The position numbers and the translations under genes are program-made. Below are positions 33,222 through 41,700 of a DNA stretch of 42,005 nt, in pieces. The stretch comes from Prevotella sp. (GTDB taxonomy: Bacteria > Bacteroidota > Bacteroidia > Bacteroidales > Bacteroidaceae): positions 1 to 42,005 of the forward strand of contig JAFZBK010000017.1 of the NCBI GenBank assembly GCA_017561825.1, written 5' to 3'. Positions within the stretch are counted from its first letter, which is position 1. Every line of letters starts with the position of its first letter. A model generated the notes under the pieces. That model saw nothing but the letters and a program-made list of their open reading frames with translations. It was not told the origin of the DNA and searched no databases.

Positions 33222-33590
33222 ATGAGTAGAAATGTAAAGAAAAGTAGAGAAGAAAGTCTGGAGATACTTCGTGAGTATCTGACCACCGACCAATCAAAAG
33301 GCGCCATATGTCGAAAATATGGGCTGAATCGTAATTGGGTTTACACGAATTTGATTAAATTTGCAGTCGCAGACAAGAAAGGAGGGTTGCCGATGAAGAA
33401 ATTGCCAGGTAATGTAAGTATCGAGAAGAACTATCACGACAGCGATCGTGAAGACCTCCTGCGTCGTATCCGCGAATTGGAGATAGAGCTGCGCAAGACA
33501 GAGATGGCACGTGATGCCTATGAAGAGATGATCCGTCTTGCCGAGCAGTACTACAACCTCCCGATAAGAAAAAAATCCGTTGCCAAGTAG
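33222..33590 (+). CDS. IS3-family transposase OrfA
   Basis: 122 residues. The N-terminal helix-turn-helix (EILREYLTTDQSKGAICRKYGLNRNWVYTNLIKF) recognises the element's ends, and the C-terminal half (DREDLLRRIRELEIELRKTEMARDAYEEMIRLA) is a leucine-zipper-like coiled coil for multimerisation. The end contains the slippery heptamer A AAA AAA at 33569-33575, in frame for -1 slippage, after which translation would enter OrfB to give the full OrfAB transposase. OrfA alone is expected to act as a regulator. Confidence 0.9.
   Translation: MSRNVKKSREESLEILREYLTTDQSKGAICRKYGLNRNWVYTNLIKFAVADKKGGLPMKKLPGNVSIEKNYHDSDREDLLRRIRELEIELRKTEMARDAYEEMIRLAEQYYNLPIRKKSVAK
33569..33575 (+). promoter_or_regulatory. 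-1 ribosomal frameshift site
   Basis: Seven A residues read as A-AAA-AAA in the OrfA frame. A -1 shift continues as ...KKIRCQVVESLSQKDRPGG, joining OrfA to OrfB without a stop. Confidence 0.85.
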
Positions 33591-33598
33591 TTGAGAGC

Positions 33599-34576
33599 TT
33601 GTCACAGAAGGACCGCCCTGGTGGCCATTACACCAAGACGGCTCTCTGTGAACTGCTTGGCATTAGCCGTAACGGCTATTACAAGCATGAGGAGAGTGAT
33701 GAAGAGTTCGGTATACTCGTGACGAGCATCGTGATGTACTGCCGCTGGCTGCGAGCGGAGGATCGCCTGCCGAAGGGTGGCTGCCGCGAGTTGCTGACCC
33801 TGTGCAAGGAATACTTCGGTGATAAGTTCAAGATTGGCCGGGACCGCTTCTACGACGTACTTCGAGCCAACGGCCTGATGCTTCGCCAGAGGCAGTACCG
33901 CCCCCGGACGACGGACTCGCGCCATCACTTCCATATTTACGAGGACCTGCTAAACACCACGCCCAGATTCGTGGCAAAGGCATGTGGAGAGATGATGGTT
34001 GCCGACATCACCTATGTCCGCTACCGTGACGGTTTCCTCTACCTGTCGCTGCTGACGGACTGCTACAGCCGCTATATCATCGGCTGGTGCCTGAGCCTTA
34101 CGCTTGAGACGGACGGGCCGCTGGAGGCCCTGCAGATGGGCCTGGGCTTTTACCGGAGCCACCGCATCAGCACCAAGGGACTCATCCACCACTCGGACAG
34201 GGGCATCCAGTATGCGTCATTCAAGTACACAGACCTGCTGAAGGCCAACAACATACGCATCAGCATGACACAGTGCGGAGACCCGCTGCACAATGCGCTG
34301 GCTGAGCGTATGAACAACACGGTGAAGAACTCCTGGCCATATGCCTATGAAGATATGGGATTCGACGAGGCACGGAAGGCTGTGGCCAATGCCATCATAA
34401 TGTACAACACGGCCCGTCCGCATAGCGCCCTGAACATGAGGACTCCATTCCAGATAGTCACGGGTATCAGGGCCAATCCGCTGCTCTCACCAACGAAGGC
34501 AGACCTTGCACGGATATCTCTCGGGGGTTCTTCGACCCCCGCCGACGGCATCCCCACGAGTGTTTTTCATGGTTAA
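33599..34576 (+). CDS. IS3-family transposase OrfB (DDE integrase domain)
   Basis: 325 residues if counted from a TTG at 33599, but it is most likely made as a fusion with OrfA by -1 frameshifting at 33569. It contains an N-terminal HTH_21-like part (GGHYTKTALCELLGISRNGYYKH) and a retroviral-type catalytic core with the acidic triad visible as D in VADITYVRY, D in HHSDRGIQYAS and E in LAERMNNTVKN. It catalyses cut and joining of the element's ends through a circular intermediate. The ORF is complete, so the element may be active. Confidence 0.92.
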   Translation: MSQKDRPGGHYTKTALCELLGISRNGYYKHEESDEEFGILVTSIVMYCRWLRAEDRLPKGGCRELLTLCKEYFGDKFKIGRDRFYDVLRANGLMLRQRQYRPRTTDSRHHFHIYEDLLNTTPRFVAKACGEMMVADITYVRYRDGFLYLSLLTDCYSRYIIGWCLSLTLETDGPLEALQMGLGFYRSHRISTKGLIHHSDRGIQYASFKYTDLLKANNIRISMTQCGDPLHNALAERMNNTVKNSWPYAYEDMGFDEARKAVANAIIMYNTARPHSALNMRTPFQIVTGIRANPLLSPTKADLARISLGGSSTPADGIPTSVFHG

Positions 34577-35013
34577 ATTCTGTTGATTATGACGTATAAT
34601 CGATTTATTGTCCTATCTTTGCCGCCGTAAACCCGATTCAGGAATAACGGAGAAATCTGTCAACCAGAACGGGAACTAAGTGATCTGCGTGTCAACTGGC
34701 TTAGGAATAAGCAGAACATAGCTATAACAATGTAAAAAAATAGGATTGTCAACCTATATTGAAATTAAAAGTATAATCTGTCAACCTAAATCAGTACACC
34801 TCAGAACTCAAAAATCGGATTGTTAGGTTTTGCATTGCGATATCTATGCTTTTAGGTGCTAAAACCTAGCCCTTTCTTTTCCCCATGGAGGGGCTGGAGG
34901 TGGGGTCTTTTCAATTATATTTAAGTCTCATGGAATTTGTGTTAAATATTATTAAGGCAGGCAGTCTTTTGACTTTTTCCCCATCTTTATAATATAATAA
35001 GGAACAAAAGTCC
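34577..35013. other. noncoding region: IS right end and flank
   Basis: 34577-34799 is the noncoding right end of the IS with TGTCAAC motifs near 34657, 34691, 34747 and 34779. 34800-35013 holds no supported gene; it includes a GC-rich palindromic repeat at 34868-34907 (CCCC-ATGGA-GGGG) and leads into the protease promoter. Confidence 0.6.
34868..34907 (-). repeat. GC-rich intergenic repeat, inverted copy
   Basis: CCCTTTCTTTTCCCCATGGA and what follows resemble the reverse complement of the repeats after the BspA-like gene (39382) and the serpin gene (41772). Confidence 0.55.
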
Positions 35014-35028: not shown

Positions 35029-36036
35029 ATGGATGTAAAAAGACTGATGTGTGCCATTGGACTGATGCTGTCGTTATGTGTGAATGGCTATGCTCATTCA
35101 AGTGACACGGGTCGATTGTATGCTGTGCTGGTTAATGGCGGGCGTAATAGACTGACGAACCATGAGCGCTATTGGAACGACTGCGCCTTCCTCTACCGTA
35201 CCCTGCGGCAGACTTTTCGTGTGCCGAAGCGCAACATCACCGTTTTGATGAGCGACGGCGGTGCTCCATCAGAGGACATGCTGCGGGCTGACGAACGGGG
35301 ATTCCTCTCGTCCCCTGTCGATCTTGATGGTGATGGACAGTCGGATGTCGATTATCCTGCAACAGAAGAGGCGCTTGTCAATGCCTTATACAGTTTGTCG
35401 AGGCGTCTTAACTTATACGATCATCTCTTTCTCTTCATTATCGATCATGGTGGTACCTATGGTGGCGATAATTCATTCATCTGGCTGTGGAACGACGAGA
35501 GAATGACTGACTATTACTTGGCCTCGCTGCTCGATAAGTTCAGGGTGGGTTCCATCGTCATCTTAATGGGACAATGTTATTCGGGCGGTTTTATGGCAGA
35601 CCTGATGCGCGAGGGGCGTGTGATGGCCACTGCATGTAGCGACAGTGAGCAGTCATGGAAATGTCCAGACCGTCCCTATGAAGAGTTTGTCTATCACTGG
35701 ACGTGTGCCGTTAATGGGGCTGATGAGTATGGTCATCCTGTGTATGCAGATACCAATGACGATGGAGAAGTGTCAATGCAAGAGGCCTTTCGGTACGCTC
35801 AAGCGCATGATCAGGCATTTGAAACACCGCAATACGCCTCATGGCCCGAACAACTAGGCGAGGAGTGGACATTCCAGCGTGCCCTTTCCAGTACAGTAGG
35901 TGTCCGTGAGATGGAGACGACAGAGCAAAAGTCCACAGCTATATGGACACTATCAGGGCAGCGCAGAAGCAGTGCTGGCGGCCACTCTATATATATCCAA
36001 CGAAAAGGTGGGAAGACAAAGAAGATAGTAAGATAG
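35029..36036 (+). CDS. secreted legumain/caspase-like (clan CD, C13-type) cysteine protease with T9SS tail
   Basis: 335 residues. Signal peptide 1-22. The catalytic pair of clan CD is visible as H140-G141 in FIIDHGG and C183 in ILMGQCYSGG, each after a hydrophobic strand; the start RLYAVLVNGGRNRLTNHERYWNDCAFLYRTL also fits the C13-like group. Two calcium-binding EF-hand-type loops are seen, DLDGDGQSD at 98-106 and DTNDDGEVSMQE at 241-252. The C terminus (TLSGQRR...SIYIQRKGGKTKKIVR) is a T9SS-type tail, so the protease should reach the surface or medium. The gene is 16 bp before the sigma-barrel gene and probably shares its transcript. Substrate unknown. Confidence 0.82.
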   Translation: MDVKRLMCAIGLMLSLCVNGYAHSSDTGRLYAVLVNGGRNRLTNHERYWNDCAFLYRTLRQTFRVPKRNITVLMSDGGAPSEDMLRADERGFLSSPVDLDGDGQSDVDYPATEEALVNALYSLSRRLNLYDHLFLFIIDHGGTYGGDNSFIWLWNDERMTDYYLASLLDKFRVGSIVILMGQCYSGGFMADLMREGRVMATACSDSEQSWKCPDRPYEEFVYHWTCAVNGADEYGHPVYADTNDDGEVSMQEAFRYAQAHDQAFETPQYASWPEQLGEEWTFQRALSSTVGVREMETTEQKSTAIWTLSGQRRSSAGGHSIYIQRKGGKTKKIVR

Positions 36037-36052
36037 TAATTAGTACAAGCGT

Positions 36053-37597
36053 ATGGCAGAACATAGCGTGAAGCAAATTGTAGAGCGGTGCCAGCAGGGC
36101 GATCGACAGGCATTCGGAGAGCTCTATACAGCTATGGCAGATCCGTTGCGTCAAGTCTGTCGTCACTATGTGACAGATGAGAGCGTCATCGACGATTTGC
36201 TTCACGACTCGTTCCTCCTGATCTTTAGTAAGATCAATTCTCTGAGAGATCCATCGAAAGCCGAAGCTTGGATGCAGAAGGTGACACAGAACCTGTCGTT
36301 GATTTATCTACAAAAGCATAAACAACAGTCAGCTGTAACGCTCGATGAATTGAAACAACCTCTGGCCGTGGCTGCTCCAGCGGCTGTGCCTATTACCTAC
36401 GAAGAGATATTGAATCTTGTGGATGCACTACCCAAGAGTTATCAGCGGGTGTTCCGTCTGTCTGTGCTTGAAGGAATGAGTCATCAAGAAATAGCCACCC
36501 TGCTCAATATTGAGCCGCATACATCATCAGCACAGCTGTTTCGTGCGAAAAAGCTGTTGCGTCAGTCGTTGGCAGTTCTATTGCTGAGTCTGCTGGTTAT
36601 TTGTCTGCCACTGGGTCTATGGTACGCTTTTCATCATCCGTCAGAAAAGGCTGAACCGTTGGTAAAGAAATCTTCCGAGCAGAATGAACCCGTCTCTTCG
36701 CAAGATGAACCCATATTGGCTCCTACTACGTTGCGTGCCGACAATGTGTCCATTCCGCCTAAGTATGTTGTCCGTCCATTACTGACTGATAATAGACAGG
36801 TAGAGACATCTGACAGTCCAACGTTACTCGCAGAAGAAAGGATGGTAACAGAAAATAGGGAAACAGAACAGACAAAAGCAGAAGATACAACCATCGTTCT
36901 GGGTGAGCCACATCGGCAGACACCTGTCCAAAGGGGCACTCCGTCTGTTACTCCAATGGAGTCCGTCAAGTCTGCTTCCGACAATGGAGAGTGGATGCTG
37001 GCCTTGGGTTACAATGGAATCAATGGTCAGCAGTCGTTTGACCTTCCTTATGGCGAAAAGGATATGAACGATCCTATGATGGATACCATTACTCACCATC
37101 GTCTGCCACTGACCATTGCAATACAAGTAAACAAGATGCTGAACGAGCAAATCTCTATAGGGTCAGGACTGCAATATACGCAGCTATATACAGAGACGCA
37201 TCTGGGTAACACCTACGCATGGGATGAACAGCAACAACGTCTGCACTATCTGGGCATCCCGTTGCGGTTGTCTTGGTATCCTGTAAGGAGTCGCCATTGG
37301 AATCTCTATGGATCAGTCCAGACTATGATGGAGCTGCCTTTACATGCAACACAGCAGAAGACAAGTTTCATAGATGGGCTTCAGGTTGATGTAAAAGAAC
37401 TACATCTGCATCCGTCCGTGCAGTGGTCGGTAGGCCTTGGTGCAGGATTTGAGTATAGATTGACACCAGTCATCGGTATCTATGCAGAGCCCAGTTTGCA
37501 GTATTTCTTTAAGACTGGAGATGGCCTTGACTCTTGGCGAACGGCTCATCCTGCTACTTTCTCTGTGCCCTTCGGTATTAGAATAACGATAGAATAA
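36053..37597 (+). CDS. ECF sigma factor fused to a membrane helix and an outer-membrane beta-barrel domain
   Basis: 514 residues in one open frame. Residues 8-88 match ECF sigma region 2 (DRQAFGELYTAMADPLRQVCRHYV, DDLLHDSFLLIFSKI) and 115-172 region 4 with its helix-turn-helix (LPKSYQRVFRLSVLEGMSHQEIATLLNI, SSAQLFRAKKLLRQ). A transmembrane helix follows at once (about 173-192), then a polar, proline/threonine-rich linker (195-310) long enough to cross the periplasm, and an OmpA/PorT-like barrel of about eight strands (312-514; WMLALGYNGINGQQSF, QISIGSGLQYTQLY, LGIPLRLSWYPV, VGLGAGFEYRL) ending GIRITIE. It would link surface sensing directly to RNA polymerase, unless proteolysis frees the sigma part. 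Bacteroides has dual-membrane-spanning anti-sigma factors with a like layout; here the sigma itself is attached. Confidence 0.85.
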   Translation: MAEHSVKQIVERCQQGDRQAFGELYTAMADPLRQVCRHYVTDESVIDDLLHDSFLLIFSKINSLRDPSKAEAWMQKVTQNLSLIYLQKHKQQSAVTLDELKQPLAVAAPAAVPITYEEILNLVDALPKSYQRVFRLSVLEGMSHQEIATLLNIEPHTSSAQLFRAKKLLRQSLAVLLLSLLVICLPLGLWYAFHHPSEKAEPLVKKSSEQNEPVSSQDEPILAPTTLRADNVSIPPKYVVRPLLTDNRQVETSDSPTLLAEERMVTENRETEQTKAEDTTIVLGEPHRQTPVQRGTPSVTPMESVKSASDNGEWMLALGYNGINGQQSFDLPYGEKDMNDPMMDTITHHRLPLTIAIQVNKMLNEQISIGSGLQYTQLYTETHLGNTYAWDEQQQRLHYLGIPLRLSWYPVRSRHWNLYGSVQTMMELPLHATQQKTSFIDGLQVDVKELHLHPSVQWSVGLGAGFEYRLTPVIGIYAEPSLQYFFKTGDGLDSWRTAHPATFSVPFGIRITIE

Positions 37598-37614: not shown

Positions 37615-39381
37615 ATGATTATGAAAAAGCTATTATCTTTACTATTTATGGTTATCACCTCCATTGGCGTAAATGCACAGGCGGTTATTGCAGAGGTTGA
37701 TTGGACCCAAGAATCAGACTATTATAATGATATGTGGTACACTGCATATTCTATTAATTATTCCGTTACAAGCGAGGGCCTGGTAATAGAAAACCTTTCA
37801 GATGATTGGGAAACGATATGGAGAGCAACGATTCCAATTATTGAACATATTAAAGAACTAAAGGCCGGAAGACATTATCAGGTTAAACTTACTATTGATG
37901 CTCCTTGTTCCAATGAAACTCGTTTGGATATATCTGGCGAGCAAGGTTGTTATCTCTGGGTTGAAGCAGGCGAGCATGAATATACGGTTGACTTCCAGTT
38001 TAATGCGTTCCAAGATGTTACTGATGCTTATATAATGTACCAGTGTGGTTATTCGCCAGGTAAACATGTGATTAAGAAAGTTCAGGTTATTGATCTGGAG
38101 GCTGGTCAAGAAAAAGGGATTATTTACAATTACGATGCAGACAATAAAACTGCAGAGGTGAAAGGTATATCCAAGTATTCTCAAGAAAGTATAGAGATCC
38201 CCAATACTGTTATCCATGAAGGGAAAAAATACACCGTTACCAAGATCGGAGAAGGTGCTTTTCAGGGTTGTAAAGACCTGATTGTTGCAAAAATCCCAAG
38301 CAGCGTGATAATTATCGGCAGTAAAGCTTTTGCATATTGCACCAACCTGGCTTTTGTTGATATTCCAAACAGTGTGTTCCGTATCGATGAAGAAGCTTTC
38401 TATGGTTGTAGTAGTCTGATTTCAATTAACCTTCCCGAAAATCTGTATCGCATTGGACGTTGGGCTTTCTCCAATTGCAGCAGTTTAGTATCTTTAGACA
38501 TTCCCGGAGGAATACCATACATATCCGACCATGCTTTTGCTGGTTGCACAAGTCTGGTTTCCGTAACCTTCCGGAACTGTTTAACCAACCTCAGTGAGTC
38601 TGTTTTCTATGGTTGCAGAAGTCTTTCTGATATAAAGATAGTTGTATCTGATTATTATTCTTTCTGTCAGAATGCTATTCTAAGTCAATTGAAGAAAGAA
38701 AATGTTGATTGTCCAATTACCTTATTAAAAGAAAACGGAGATGAAATCCAAGAAGTCAAGATACCTGAACTTATTTCGTCTATCGGATTTGGAGCTTTCT
38801 ATAATTGTAAAGGCATAACGTCCGTAAGCATCCACAATGGAGTAACCTCCATCGGTGAATCGGCATTCGAGAATTGCTCTAATATAACATCCGTGTCAAT
38901 ACCCAATAGTGTGACTTCCATTGGAGCAAGAGCGTTTTATAACTGCGCAGGGCTGACCTCTTTTGTTTTACCTTATGATTTATCAATGATAAAGAAGCAA
39001 ACATTCTATGGCTGTACCAACCTTGAAGCCATTTCCATTCCTGCTTCAGTAGAATATATCTTCCAAGAAGCATTCGCAAAGTGTGATAATTTACAGCAAG
39101 TGACTGCTTTGCCAAAGATTCCACCTTTCATGTTTGCCAACTCTTTCTCCAACTATGATGCTATTTTGAAAGTGCCTGATTCTTCGATTGATCAATATAA
39201 GAGTACTGATCCTTGGAGCAGGTTTAAGATGATTGTGACAACATCAATACAGAATCCTTCCGTTGACCATCACGGTATCATCTCCGATTCGCCATTCTAC
39301 GACCTTAATGGCCGAAGAGTACAAGGAAAGCCCAAGAAGGGAGTGTATATACAAAACGGGGTAAAAAGAGTGGTGAGATAA
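37615..39381 (+). CDS. BspA-family leucine-rich repeat surface protein with N-terminal beta-domain and T9SS tail
   Basis: 588 residues. Signal peptide 1-21 (ends VNAQ); a second ATG at 37621 is an equally good start. Residues 25-160 form a beta-rich domain resembling the carbohydrate-binding insert of the xylanase at 727 (KAGRHYQVKLTIDA, DAYIMYQCGY, KVQVID). Residues 165-530 hold about a dozen LRR_5-type repeats (IGEGAFQGCKDL, IGSKAFAYCTNL, IDEEAFYGCSSL, IGESAFENCSNI). The C terminus (FYDLNGRRVQGKPKKGVYIQNGVKRVVR) is a T9SS tail. Such proteins mediate binding to host, other cells or polymers. It begins 17 bp after the sigma-barrel gene and is more AT-rich than its neighbours, suggesting shared expression and separate ancestry. 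Confidence 0.9.
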   Translation: MIMKKLLSLLFMVITSIGVNAQAVIAEVDWTQESDYYNDMWYTAYSINYSVTSEGLVIENLSDDWETIWRATIPIIEHIKELKAGRHYQVKLTIDAPCSNETRLDISGEQGCYLWVEAGEHEYTVDFQFNAFQDVTDAYIMYQCGYSPGKHVIKKVQVIDLEAGQEKGIIYNYDADNKTAEVKGISKYSQESIEIPNTVIHEGKKYTVTKIGEGAFQGCKDLIVAKIPSSVIIIGSKAFAYCTNLAFVDIPNSVFRIDEEAFYGCSSLISINLPENLYRIGRWAFSNCSSLVSLDIPGGIPYISDHAFAGCTSLVSVTFRNCLTNLSESVFYGCRSLSDIKIVVSDYYSFCQNAILSQLKKENVDCPITLLKENGDEIQEVKIPELISSIGFGAFYNCKGITSVSIHNGVTSIGESAFENCSNITSVSIPNSVTSIGARAFYNCAGLTSFVLPYDLSMIKKQTFYGCTNLEAISIPASVEYIFQEAFAKCDNLQQVTALPKIPPFMFANSFSNYDAILKVPDSSIDQYKSTDPWSRFKMIVTTSIQNPSVDHHGIISDSPFYDLNGRRVQGKPKKGVYIQNGVKRVVR

Positions 39382-39834: not shown

Positions 39835-41700
39835 ATGATGAAGAAACTACTTTTCATGACGGTCCTTTTCTCTGCAATAAGCATTAATGCTATAGCAGAA
39901 GACAATACCCGTATTCCTATGCTGGAGCAGGGGAAAGCATGGACTTATATCCTTCACCACTTTGACTATGATGGTGATCGCTACAAAGAGACAACTACTG
40001 GCGTGATTTATCAGTTGGAGGGCGATACAGTCATTGACGGACGGCAGTATATGAAGATGTACCGTCGCATCAGTAAGATTAATAGCAAAAGTTACTATGG
40101 CGCCTTTCGTGAAGATGAGGAGGGAAGGGTGTGGCAATATGATTATCAGGGTGACCAGAAAGATTTCATGATCTGCGACATCACCTGTGAGGATTATCCA
40201 GATTATATCTTTGATAAGGAGACCAAGACGGTTTCAGATATCTTCTATGTTAAAGGAAAGAAGTTCCATCGATATATCCGAGACGAGTTCATCGGTGTTG
40301 AAGGTGTCGGTTTTGAGGGAAAGGGACTGATATACCACCTTGAAGATGACTATCCTACTTGTGTGTGCGACTATGAGTTATTCGAAAAAGTTGTAGCGAA
40401 AGGTTTCCAGTTTTTTAATAGTGACTTCTTTGGACCTCATTCTATCGAGTTGACACAGGATGAGAAGCAGCTGGTGGAACAAAACAACGATTTTGCCTTT
40501 AACCTCTTTCGCAAAACACGTACAGGGGCGAGTCAGATTATCTCACCACTGAGCATCACATACTCCTTAGGTATGCTGAACAATGGGGCTGCCGGGCAGA
40601 CGCAACAGGAGATATTACAGGTGCTGGGCTTCAAGGATGTTGCCGCTCAGAACGAGTTCTGTTTGAAAATGCAGAACGAATTTCTAACAGCCCATCTTGT
40701 TGACGGCACCAAGGCACTTCTTTCCAACACCATCTTTGTTAACCAAGGACTGGGTTGGCAGTTGCAGGATGGGTTCATCAATAAGGCCAAGGACTATTAT
40801 TTCGCACTGCCAGAGAACCGCGACTTCAAAGACGGCAGGACACTCGGCGTGATAAACCAATGGGCCAGTGACCACACGGACGGGATGATCCAGGAGGTGC
40901 TCAACGAAAGCGATTTCGACCCATCGGCCGTGAGCTACCTACTCAATGCCCTTTACTTCAAAGGTTTATGGAGTAATCCTTTTGATGTAGATATGACTCA
41001 AGAGGAAATCTTTGAAGGAGGGAATACCGTACTGATGATGCAGGATACATGGTTTGATCTCAAGTATGCTGAGAATGAACTCTATCAGATGGTTTGGCTA
41101 CCCTATGGAAACAAGACCTACCAGATGGAAATCATCCTGCCCCGCAAAGGGAAAACGCTCGATGAAGTGGTGGAGCAATTGAACGGAACGAACTGGCAAC
41201 TGGAAGGTCAATCAACCATGGTAAATGTGAAACTGCCTCGATTTGAGACCGGTACAGAAATCGACTTGAAAGACATCATGTCAGCGCTGGGTATGCCCTC
41301 TGTCTTCAATTGTGAAGATGCCGACCTCTCCAACCTCTGTATGGATAATAATGGAGAGAACCTGTTCATTAGTAAGATGAAGCAGGTGGCAAAAATCAAG
41401 CTAAACGAACAGGGGACTATAGCTGCTGCCGTCACTATCGATTATCTTACAGGTTCGGATGGAAGTAAACCCGTCGAGTTCTATGCTAACCATCCCTTCC
41501 TTTATGTCATCTGTGAGAGATCAACAGGTATCATCCTTTTCATCGGACAGTTTATGGGTGAAACAACAACGAAAATCGTTACACCCTGTAAAACAAATAG
41601 AGACGACCATACAATCTACAACCTTGCTGGTCAGCGACTAAGCGTACCTCCAACTCACGGCATCTATATTCAGGGTGGGAAAAAGGTCGTGATTAAGTGA
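39835..41700 (+). CDS. secreted serpin (serine/cysteine protease inhibitor) with N-terminal domain and T9SS tail
   Basis: 621 residues. Signal peptide 1-21. Residues 25-195 form an extra domain (WTYILHHFDYDGDRYKETTTG, DGRQYMKMYRRI) seen in other Prevotella secreted proteins, of unknown role. Residues 210-575 are a serpin: NNDFAFNLFRK, ISPLSITYSLGMLNNGAAGQT, LLNALYFKGLW, and the signature FYANHPFLYVI (549-559). The hinge E525-Q-G-T-I-A-A-A-V-T534 has small residues as in inhibitory serpins, so it should insert its loop and trap a protease; the scissile bond is near S541-D542, uncertain by two residues. The end (IYNLAGQRL...GIYIQGGKKVVIK) is a T9SS tail. It has its own promoter. It may protect the cell from host or neighbour proteases, or control the protease at 35029. 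Confidence 0.92.
   Translation: MMKKLLFMTVLFSAISINAIAEDNTRIPMLEQGKAWTYILHHFDYDGDRYKETTTGVIYQLEGDTVIDGRQYMKMYRRISKINSKSYYGAFREDEEGRVWQYDYQGDQKDFMICDITCEDYPDYIFDKETKTVSDIFYVKGKKFHRYIRDEFIGVEGVGFEGKGLIYHLEDDYPTCVCDYELFEKVVAKGFQFFNSDFFGPHSIELTQDEKQLVEQNNDFAFNLFRKTRTGASQIISPLSITYSLGMLNNGAAGQTQQEILQVLGFKDVAAQNEFCLKMQNEFLTAHLVDGTKALLSNTIFVNQGLGWQLQDGFINKAKDYYFALPENRDFKDGRTLGVINQWASDHTDGMIQEVLNESDFDPSAVSYLLNALYFKGLWSNPFDVDMTQEEIFEGGNTVLMMQDTWFDLKYAENELYQMVWLPYGNKTYQMEIILPRKGKTLDEVVEQLNGTNWQLEGQSTMVNVKLPRFETGTEIDLKDIMSALGMPSVFNCEDADLSNLCMDNNGENLFISKMKQVAKIKLNEQGTIAAAVTIDYLTGSDGSKPVEFYANHPFLYVICERSTGIILFIGQFMGETTTKIVTPCKTNRDDHTIYNLAGQRLSVPPTHGIYIQGGKKVVIK

Follow-up and report, generated by a model that had tools for sequence, protein, structure and literature searches.

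A sigma factor fused to a predicted dual-membrane-spanning protein of the Dma3 type in Prevotella, with a candidate promoter code and clade-specific neighbour genes

A gene in Prevotella sp. contig JAFZBK010000017.1 (assembly GCA_017561825.1; the 42,005-nucleotide stretch analysed here is hereinafter designated the window) joins an ECF sigma factor, a transmembrane helix, a polar tether and a predicted outer-membrane barrel in a single chain. From comparison with its homologues we consider it reasonably probable that the product is a working, autoregulated sigma factor of the Dma3 type, fused once with the gene of its Dma anti-sigma partner, held back by its tether and probably freed by proteolytic cutting within the membrane. 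The sigma-helix-tether-barrel architecture is already in print: in the parts of PMC13088901 (Pardue et al. 2026) available to us, Dma3 (BT_2778) of Bacteroides thetaiotaomicron carries an N-terminal sigma domain and is said to be very little known, and the accessible part of PMC10434189 lists BT2778 under the sigma-70 family. New in the present analysis are the apparent single origin of the fused proteins, their distribution, the disappearance of an anti-sigma domain, a promoter code open to testing and neighbour genes that differ by clade.

The gene occupies one stop-free frame of the window translation, for which an annotation artefact was rejected (Table 1). All three Pfam domains of the product score above their cut-offs, sigma region 2 and the barrel by a narrow margin. 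With Pfam matches to sigma regions 2 and 4 and none to region 3, the protein belongs to the ECF type; it matches the NCBIfam superfamily TIGR02937 with 57.5 bits (cut-off 42.9), and its best NCBIfam match, TIGR02985 (Sig70_bacteroi1), reaches 80.8 bits, below the cut-off of 126.4. A profile of the fused family matches E. coli sigmaE through both regions over positions 7-176 (1or7, E 6.7e-23; 6jbq, E 9.7e-23). Behind the region 4 match, which ends at residue 169, a hydrophobic peak spans residues 173-189, with a mean Kyte-Doolittle value of 2.86 over 17 residues. The preliminary description had proposed an uninterrupted 514-codon frame with ECF regions 2 and 4, a transmembrane helix directly behind the sigma helix-turn-helix, a polar linker of about 115 residues and an eight-strand-like barrel; translation and Pfam bear out the first, the hydrophobic peak and the extent of the tether agree with the second and third, and the barrel is recovered at the profile level. 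OMP_b-brl_2 is matched at E <= 0.001 by 12 of the 19 members of set A1, the barrel region being present in 13 of the 19, and a pattern resembling a C-terminal beta-signal occurs in 101 of the 104 fused proteins described below. Profile matches and this terminal pattern predict, at the level of sequence profile only, that the C-terminal domain of the window protein is an outer-membrane barrel.

Table 1. Features of the fused gene and its surroundings (window coordinates; residues are those of the protein concerned)
Feature	Position	Strand	Length	Details
Promoter-like motif GCAGTCTTT-13 bp-ATCTTTA before the C13 peptidase gene, first of the operon	34961..34989	+		25.6 bits
C13 (legumain-like) peptidase, secreted type	35029..36036	+	335 aa	Pfam Peptidase_C13 42.8 bits; catalytic-type His140 and Cys183
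Fused gene: ECF sigma factor, transmembrane helix, tether, outer-membrane barrel (predicted)	36053..37597	+	514 aa	
Sigma region 2, residues 24-90	36122..36322	+		Pfam Sigma70_r2 25.5 bits, cut-off 24
Sigma region 4 with helix-turn-helix, residues 117-169	36401..36559	+		Pfam Sigma70_r4_2 50.5 bits, cut-off 25.7
Predicted transmembrane helix, about residues 173-193, proline-containing, abutting sigma region 4	36569..36631	+		Hydropathy 2.86
Polar tether, predicted periplasmic, residues 194-310	36632..36982	+		DTT at residue 278, one canonical O-glycosylation motif
Predicted outer-membrane beta-barrel domain, residues 311-514	36983..37594	+		Pfam OMP_b-brl_2 at 316-470, 29.3 bits, cut-off 27
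BspA-type leucine-rich-repeat (LRR) protein	37615..39381	+	588 aa	Pfam LRR_5 239 bits; 17 bp behind the fused gene
Serpin with extra N-terminal stretch	39835..41700	+	621 aa	Pfam Serpin 284 bits over 216-574

A search for homologues keeping all four parts, proposed in the preliminary description, returned 104 distinct fused proteins, a figure that counts only stop-free, stop-to-stop open reading frames in the fetched loci and includes some near-identical proteins and a few incomplete at their ends. A search of 398 genomes of the genus with the window protein gave matches at E <= 1e-60 in 38, its own genome included; a second fused protein, searched against 399 genomes of the family, gave matches at E <= 1e-25 in 189, not all of these matches being fused. 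Where the sources of fused homologues are named, they are metagenome assemblies of Prevotella and Prevotellaceae, of which two bear the titles yak rumen and yak reticulum; a genome from another family of the order (G996) encodes two fused proteins. Some seeming fusions, from genus g27 and from other families, proved to have a stop between the two genes and were set aside as not fused.

Elsewhere the same sigma factor and barrel protein are encoded by two adjoining genes, often with a 4-base overlap. Our set of such split relatives comprises 51 pairs, reduced from 54 by removal of L241, L243 and L244, which have the appearance of disrupted fused genes. In these 51, the helix of the barrel protein is preceded by 40-62 residues (median 49), a length that fits the Dma anti-sigma anatomy of anti-sigma domain, helix, disordered tether and barrel given in the available text of PMC13088901. 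In all 104 fused chains only 0-9 residues separate the end of sigma region 4 from the start of the helix, and there is therefore no room for such a domain; the anti-sigma domain of about 50 residues found in the two-gene relatives appears to have been lost. In a tree of 108 sigma domains, thinned by similarity from 152, one branch (SH-aLRT 100) parts the 76 fused from the 32 split sequences. When 32 fused sequences, hand-picked across clades from the 76, are placed in a rooted tree with the 32 split sequences and 11 other ECF factors, the fused ones form a single clade (100/100), and the split ones are monophyletic in only 6% of 200 bootstraps. A single fusion event in an ancestor belonging to the family, accompanied by loss of the anti-sigma domain, would explain all fused proteins, and the fused clade appears to derive from two-gene operons of the Dma sigma/anti-sigma type. 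Fused proteins of genera g27, g32 and g37 of the same family also fall inside the fused clade; most of the fused genes shown for these genera adjoin a gene for a methyltransferase of about 260 residues, and the label Dma3-like that we give this group is a guess. In two of the two-gene relatives (L190, 7979-7980; L247, 7507-7508), the anti-sigma reading frame lies in frame and begins at the codon after the sigma stop, an arrangement in which two genes and one chain are only a small step apart.

Compared with five relatives, in a comparison where synonymous changes are near saturation, the window protein shows dN values of 0.11-0.24 in sigma region 2, 0.08-0.21 in sigma region 4 (counted over residues 117-172), 0.14-0.33 in the barrel and 1.0-1.3 in the tether, pointing to purifying selection on the sigma domains. 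We regard it as extremely improbable that the protein is a decayed or chance fusion whose sigma part is inactive. Such decay would agree with the narrow margins by which sigma region 2 and the barrel pass their Pfam cut-offs and with the broken appearance of L241, L243 and L244, but it is opposed by the selection apparent on both sigma regions, by the descent of 104 fused homologues from what appears to be one event and by a promoter motif, described below, that varies along with the clade. Chance fusion in itself was ruled out by the recurrence of the 104 homologues together with the single 100% branch in the sigma tree. Because the sigma part is conserved and a recognisable promoter motif accompanies it, the fused sigma is very probably active; that it is functional and autoregulatory is well supported by sequence.

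The gene neighbourhood of the window's clade (hereinafter designated clade I) was surveyed in 33 loci, a selection that takes in not every homologue match (G305 and G282, for example, were left out). In all 33, the fused gene is preceded on its own strand by a C13 peptidase gene, either immediately or after a single intervening gene, and His140 and Cys183 are kept in 33/33 of the peptidases; in the window the gap between the peptidase gene and the fused gene is 16 bp. Proteins designated P600 lie between peptidase and fused sigma (L043, 4172-5995; L044, 4144-5988; L046, 4162-5913); no Pfam family scored over its cut-off in the three that were scanned, and no NCBIfam family matched in the two scanned. 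Of the 33 loci, 15 have a serpin gene no more than five genes away from the fused one. The LRR gene of the window is probably on the same transcript as the fused gene, and the 453-bp gap before the serpin gene holds no match of at least 12 bits to the promoter matrix described below. The immediate neighbours being a C13 peptidase and an LRR protein and the sigma part lying in the same chain, the absence of a separate anti-sigma gene noted at the outset stands. Outside clade I, no C13 gene was found in 28 fused loci whose upstream sequence extends to 3.5 kb or more, and many loci of clade II carry a small lipoprotein-like gene (assigned by eye), a radical-SAM/SPASM gene and a Gfo/Idh/MocA-like gene. 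Across clades the fused device is retained and its neighbour genes change.

Several other features of the window lie close by. The C13 peptidase has Asp-rich stretches (DLDGDGQSDVDY and DTNDDGEVS) that by eye have a calcium-binding look; several of their Asp residues are kept in 33/33, and the EF-hand match is weak (12.3 bits). About 380 bp separate the promoter-like motif from the end of an insertion-sequence-like pair of genes at 33222-34576 (+); the second, at 33599-34576, encodes an integrase core (Pfam rve, 56 bits), and the first, at 33222-33590, has no Pfam match. On the opposite strand, a 344-residue reading frame at 31852-32886 matches the Y1 transposase (IS200-like) family with 22.5 bits, just under the cut-off of 23; it may be a transposase of the REP-associated kind with a second domain attached.

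The promoter motif is bipartite, consisting of a -35 half TGCAGTCTTT, a spacer of about 15 bp and a clade-specific -10 half. An expectation-maximization (EM) motif search of the regions upstream of the C13 genes in 32 non-redundant clade I loci placed the motif in 21 of the 32 with posterior 1.0, and scored 279 for the real set compared with 91-97 for three shuffled sets, which were given 25 starts each against 60 for the real one. Among the 21, 16 have a GCAGT box and five another box; 11 of the 32 have no EM motif directly upstream, and at several of these the scan matrix finds a standard site before the serpin gene, before the P600 gene or at a C13 start that is probably misplaced. This matrix was built only from the 16 clade I C13-upstream GCAGT sites and was applied to the 150 bp upstream of each gene at a threshold of 14 bits. 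Outside clade I it finds sites before 28 of 46 fused genes, 7 of 9 LIP genes, 7 of 9 methyltransferase genes and 6 of 16 radical-SAM genes (15 of these 16 being positive by the -35 half alone), and within clade I before 14 of 30 P600 and 4 of 15 serpin genes. Sites precede none of six other sigma genes and 20 of 675 other reading frames, the latter control being high rather than low since some motif-bearing genes remain in it, namely a few methyltransferases without a label and one LRR gene. At 14 bits none of the 33 clade I fused genes has a site of its own; these genes are internal to the operon. In the two-gene relatives the -35 half reaches 9 bits in 8 of 51.

The -35 half TGCAGTCTTT is common to the clades and the -10 half varies among them: TATCTT in clade I, GGACTATA in most of clade II with other forms in its side branches, and TTATCATA in the Dma3-like group, each clade's form being common to the sigma gene and its neighbours. 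In the clade II locus L165 (7942-12473), the fused sigma, lipoprotein-like and radical-SAM/SPASM genes each have their own TGCAGTCTTT-type box; the Gfo/Idh/MocA-like gene there overlaps the radical-SAM gene, and no box was found before it. Exact clade II sites number 11, occur in 8 of 10 whole genomes and all lie at the fused locus (reversed control, 0), and exact clade I sites, also 11, occur in 8 of 12 genomes, with 7 at the fused locus and 4 elsewhere (reversed control, 1); over all 23 genomes searched, 19 of 23 exact sites lie at fused loci. In the window's own assembly (2.98 Mb, 88% complete) the pattern GCAGTCTTTN{11,14}ATCWT has a single match, at 34961 (reversed control, 0). The -10 half of this site, CATCTT, is one letter off the clade form, and the spaced pattern with TATCTT consequently finds no match in the genome. 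On its own, GCAGTCTTTT has five matches in the window compared with 2.98 expected in shuffles, which is not a clear enrichment. Three weaker sites, with two mismatches each, occur elsewhere in the window's genome. From the position of the motif and its co-variation with the clade, we infer that it is recognised by this very sigma factor. Our literature search, which did not cover Pardue et al. 2024 PNAS (reportedly the paper on the Dma family), found no account of this promoter motif or of a C13 neighbourhood.

The promoter evidence also bears on the role of the neighbouring peptidase. Were the C13 peptidase the activator, cutting the tether or an exposed loop to start release, the presence of its gene upstream in 33/33 clade I loci, the retention of its catalytic-type residues in all 33 and the placing of a protease, often together with a serpin, beside a sigma factor possibly freed by proteolysis would all be accounted for. 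We consider this improbable, since the C13 gene itself bears the promoter motif, which makes it look like a target, and since such a gene is lacking from the 28 fused loci outside clade I that extend 3.5 kb or more upstream; the fast drift of the tether (dN 1.0-1.3) and the absence, by eye, of a conserved Asn column in the family alignment also argue against it.

The fused proteins carry a mean net charge of +4.3 over the 15 residues before the helix and -0.4 behind it, the former exceeding the latter in 102 of 104, which by the positive-inside rule predicts an N-in/C-out orientation. The tether, on the periplasmic side in this topology, is rich in the Bacteroidota O-glycosylation motif D(S/T)(A/I/L/M/T/V), as defined in the portions of PMC10897501, PMC12871550 and PMC8550257 at hand. 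The 104 fused tethers contain 292 occurrences versus 68 +/- 8 in shuffles, distributed over 94 tethers with none in the other 10, and in the sigma part the motif is depleted (26 versus 47 +/- 6 shuffled). No such enrichment was seen in the split tethers (20 versus 26 +/- 5 shuffled), a contrast to be taken as a difference and not as independent events, since the sequences share ancestry and most of the split ones belong to other families. Besides the tether motif of Table 1, the window protein has DTI344 in its barrel domain.

Fused and split proteins differ in the helix as well: a helix proline is present in 84 of 104 fused proteins versus 4 of 51 split ones, and the 20 fused proteins without it include 7 of the 8 Dma3-like rows. 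Site-2 proteases cut more readily where a helix carries helix-breaking residues. The term helix-breaking residues stands among the keywords of PMC4597795. The genome of the window contains one M50 protease gene (G000:C25:68387-69676). A precedent for release is IutY of Pseudomonas putida (ECF243), which the consulted sections of PMC5411451 describe as a sigma-transmembrane-periplasmic fusion freed by Prc and RseP, and which a 2022 review (PMC8999054, likewise in the sections consulted) names as the only ECF factor whose activation by proteolysis of this kind has been experimentally characterised. By analogy with IutY, and together with the helix proline and the genomic M50 protease gene, proteolytic release is the favoured mode of activation.

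A sigma factor working while tethered is an unlikely alternative, in which holoenzyme would form at the inner membrane and the state of the barrel or tether would set its activity with no cleavage. Membrane regulators of the ToxR and CadC type are the model for such action while membrane-bound. No recognised protease gene is found among the identified neighbours in clade II and Dma3-like loci, the proline is missing from 20 of the 104 helices and a narrow local regulon could be reached from the membrane, all of which would suit tethered action; against it, the abutment of sigma region 4 on the helix would leave little room for promoter binding at the membrane, and IutY, the only ECF factor for which such activation is shown according to the passages of PMC8999054 consulted, needs RseP (PMC5411451, in part).

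Among known systems, Dma3 is the closest by description, sharing with the window protein an N-terminal sigma domain on a helix-tether-barrel protein that would span both membranes, with no separate sigma gene alongside. Judged by what is published of Dma3 in the parts of PMC13088901 consulted, the window's clade differs in its neighbourhood of C13 peptidase, P600 or LRR protein and serpin, and those parts make no mention of a promoter motif, loss of an anti-sigma domain or tether motifs for Dma3. The earlier interpretation, of a sigma factor itself spanning both membranes, is upheld as regards one chain with four parts, now seen in 104 homologues, and the missing anti-sigma gene; as an architecture it had been anticipated by Dma3 (PMC13088901, same parts). 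The ECF21 pairs Dma1/Das1 and Dma2/Das2 resemble the window protein in helix, long tether and C-terminal barrel, but their sigma and anti-sigma factors are two proteins. IutY is, as in the accessible text of PMC5411451, also a one-chain ECF sigma factor with helix and periplasmic part that takes its signal from the outer membrane, whereas it has a periplasmic anti-sigma domain and a separate outer-membrane receptor and lacks a barrel. The Streptomyces ECF52 factor SCO4117, by the part of PMC5826349 available, likewise arranges sigma, helix, proline-rich stretch and extracytoplasmic domain in one chain, but differs by a zinc finger and a carbohydrate-binding module and by restriction to Actinobacteria. 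Neither a FecR-like periplasmic anti-sigma domain nor an ECF52-type zinc finger or carbohydrate-binding module was found in the window protein among 7 Pfam families up to E 1.

In the favoured explanation, the genes of an ECF sigma factor and of its dual-membrane-spanning anti-sigma partner were joined once, and with the disappearance of the anti-sigma domain sigma region 4 came to run into the inner-membrane helix. With the helix fixed in the inner membrane and the barrel in the outer one, the sigma part would not be available to RNA polymerase. Some event involving the barrel or the tether, for which barrel assembly, a ligand, tension or a protease are candidate signals, may let a periplasmic protease cut, after which a protease of the M50/RseP type would cut within the proline-containing helix. 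The freed sigma factor (about residues 1-175) would then recognise the bipartite promoter before its own operon and the neighbouring genes and transcribe the local cassette, itself included, in positive autoregulation. In clade I the operon yields the C13 peptidase, amid LRR, P600 and serpin proteins of surface type.

With more reserve, and as a possibility only, we propose that such a chain serves as its own sensor and brake: anchored in both membranes and devoid of an anti-sigma domain, with an O-glycosylated tether and a proline-containing helix that make it a substrate for regulated intramembrane cutting, it would release its sigma part upon an outer-membrane event to serve a private neighbouring cassette, which clades swap while the promoter moves along. 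If this is true, the private cassette in the window would be a legumain-type surface protease, often accompanied by a protease inhibitor. The comparison of fused with two-gene systems suggests that the tether replaced the anti-sigma factor: the anti-sigma domain went, and most members gained a helix proline and glycosylation motifs. The promoter motif before each clade's cassette makes the targets of this putatively membrane-locked sigma factor, and the timing of its release, open to direct reporter tests.
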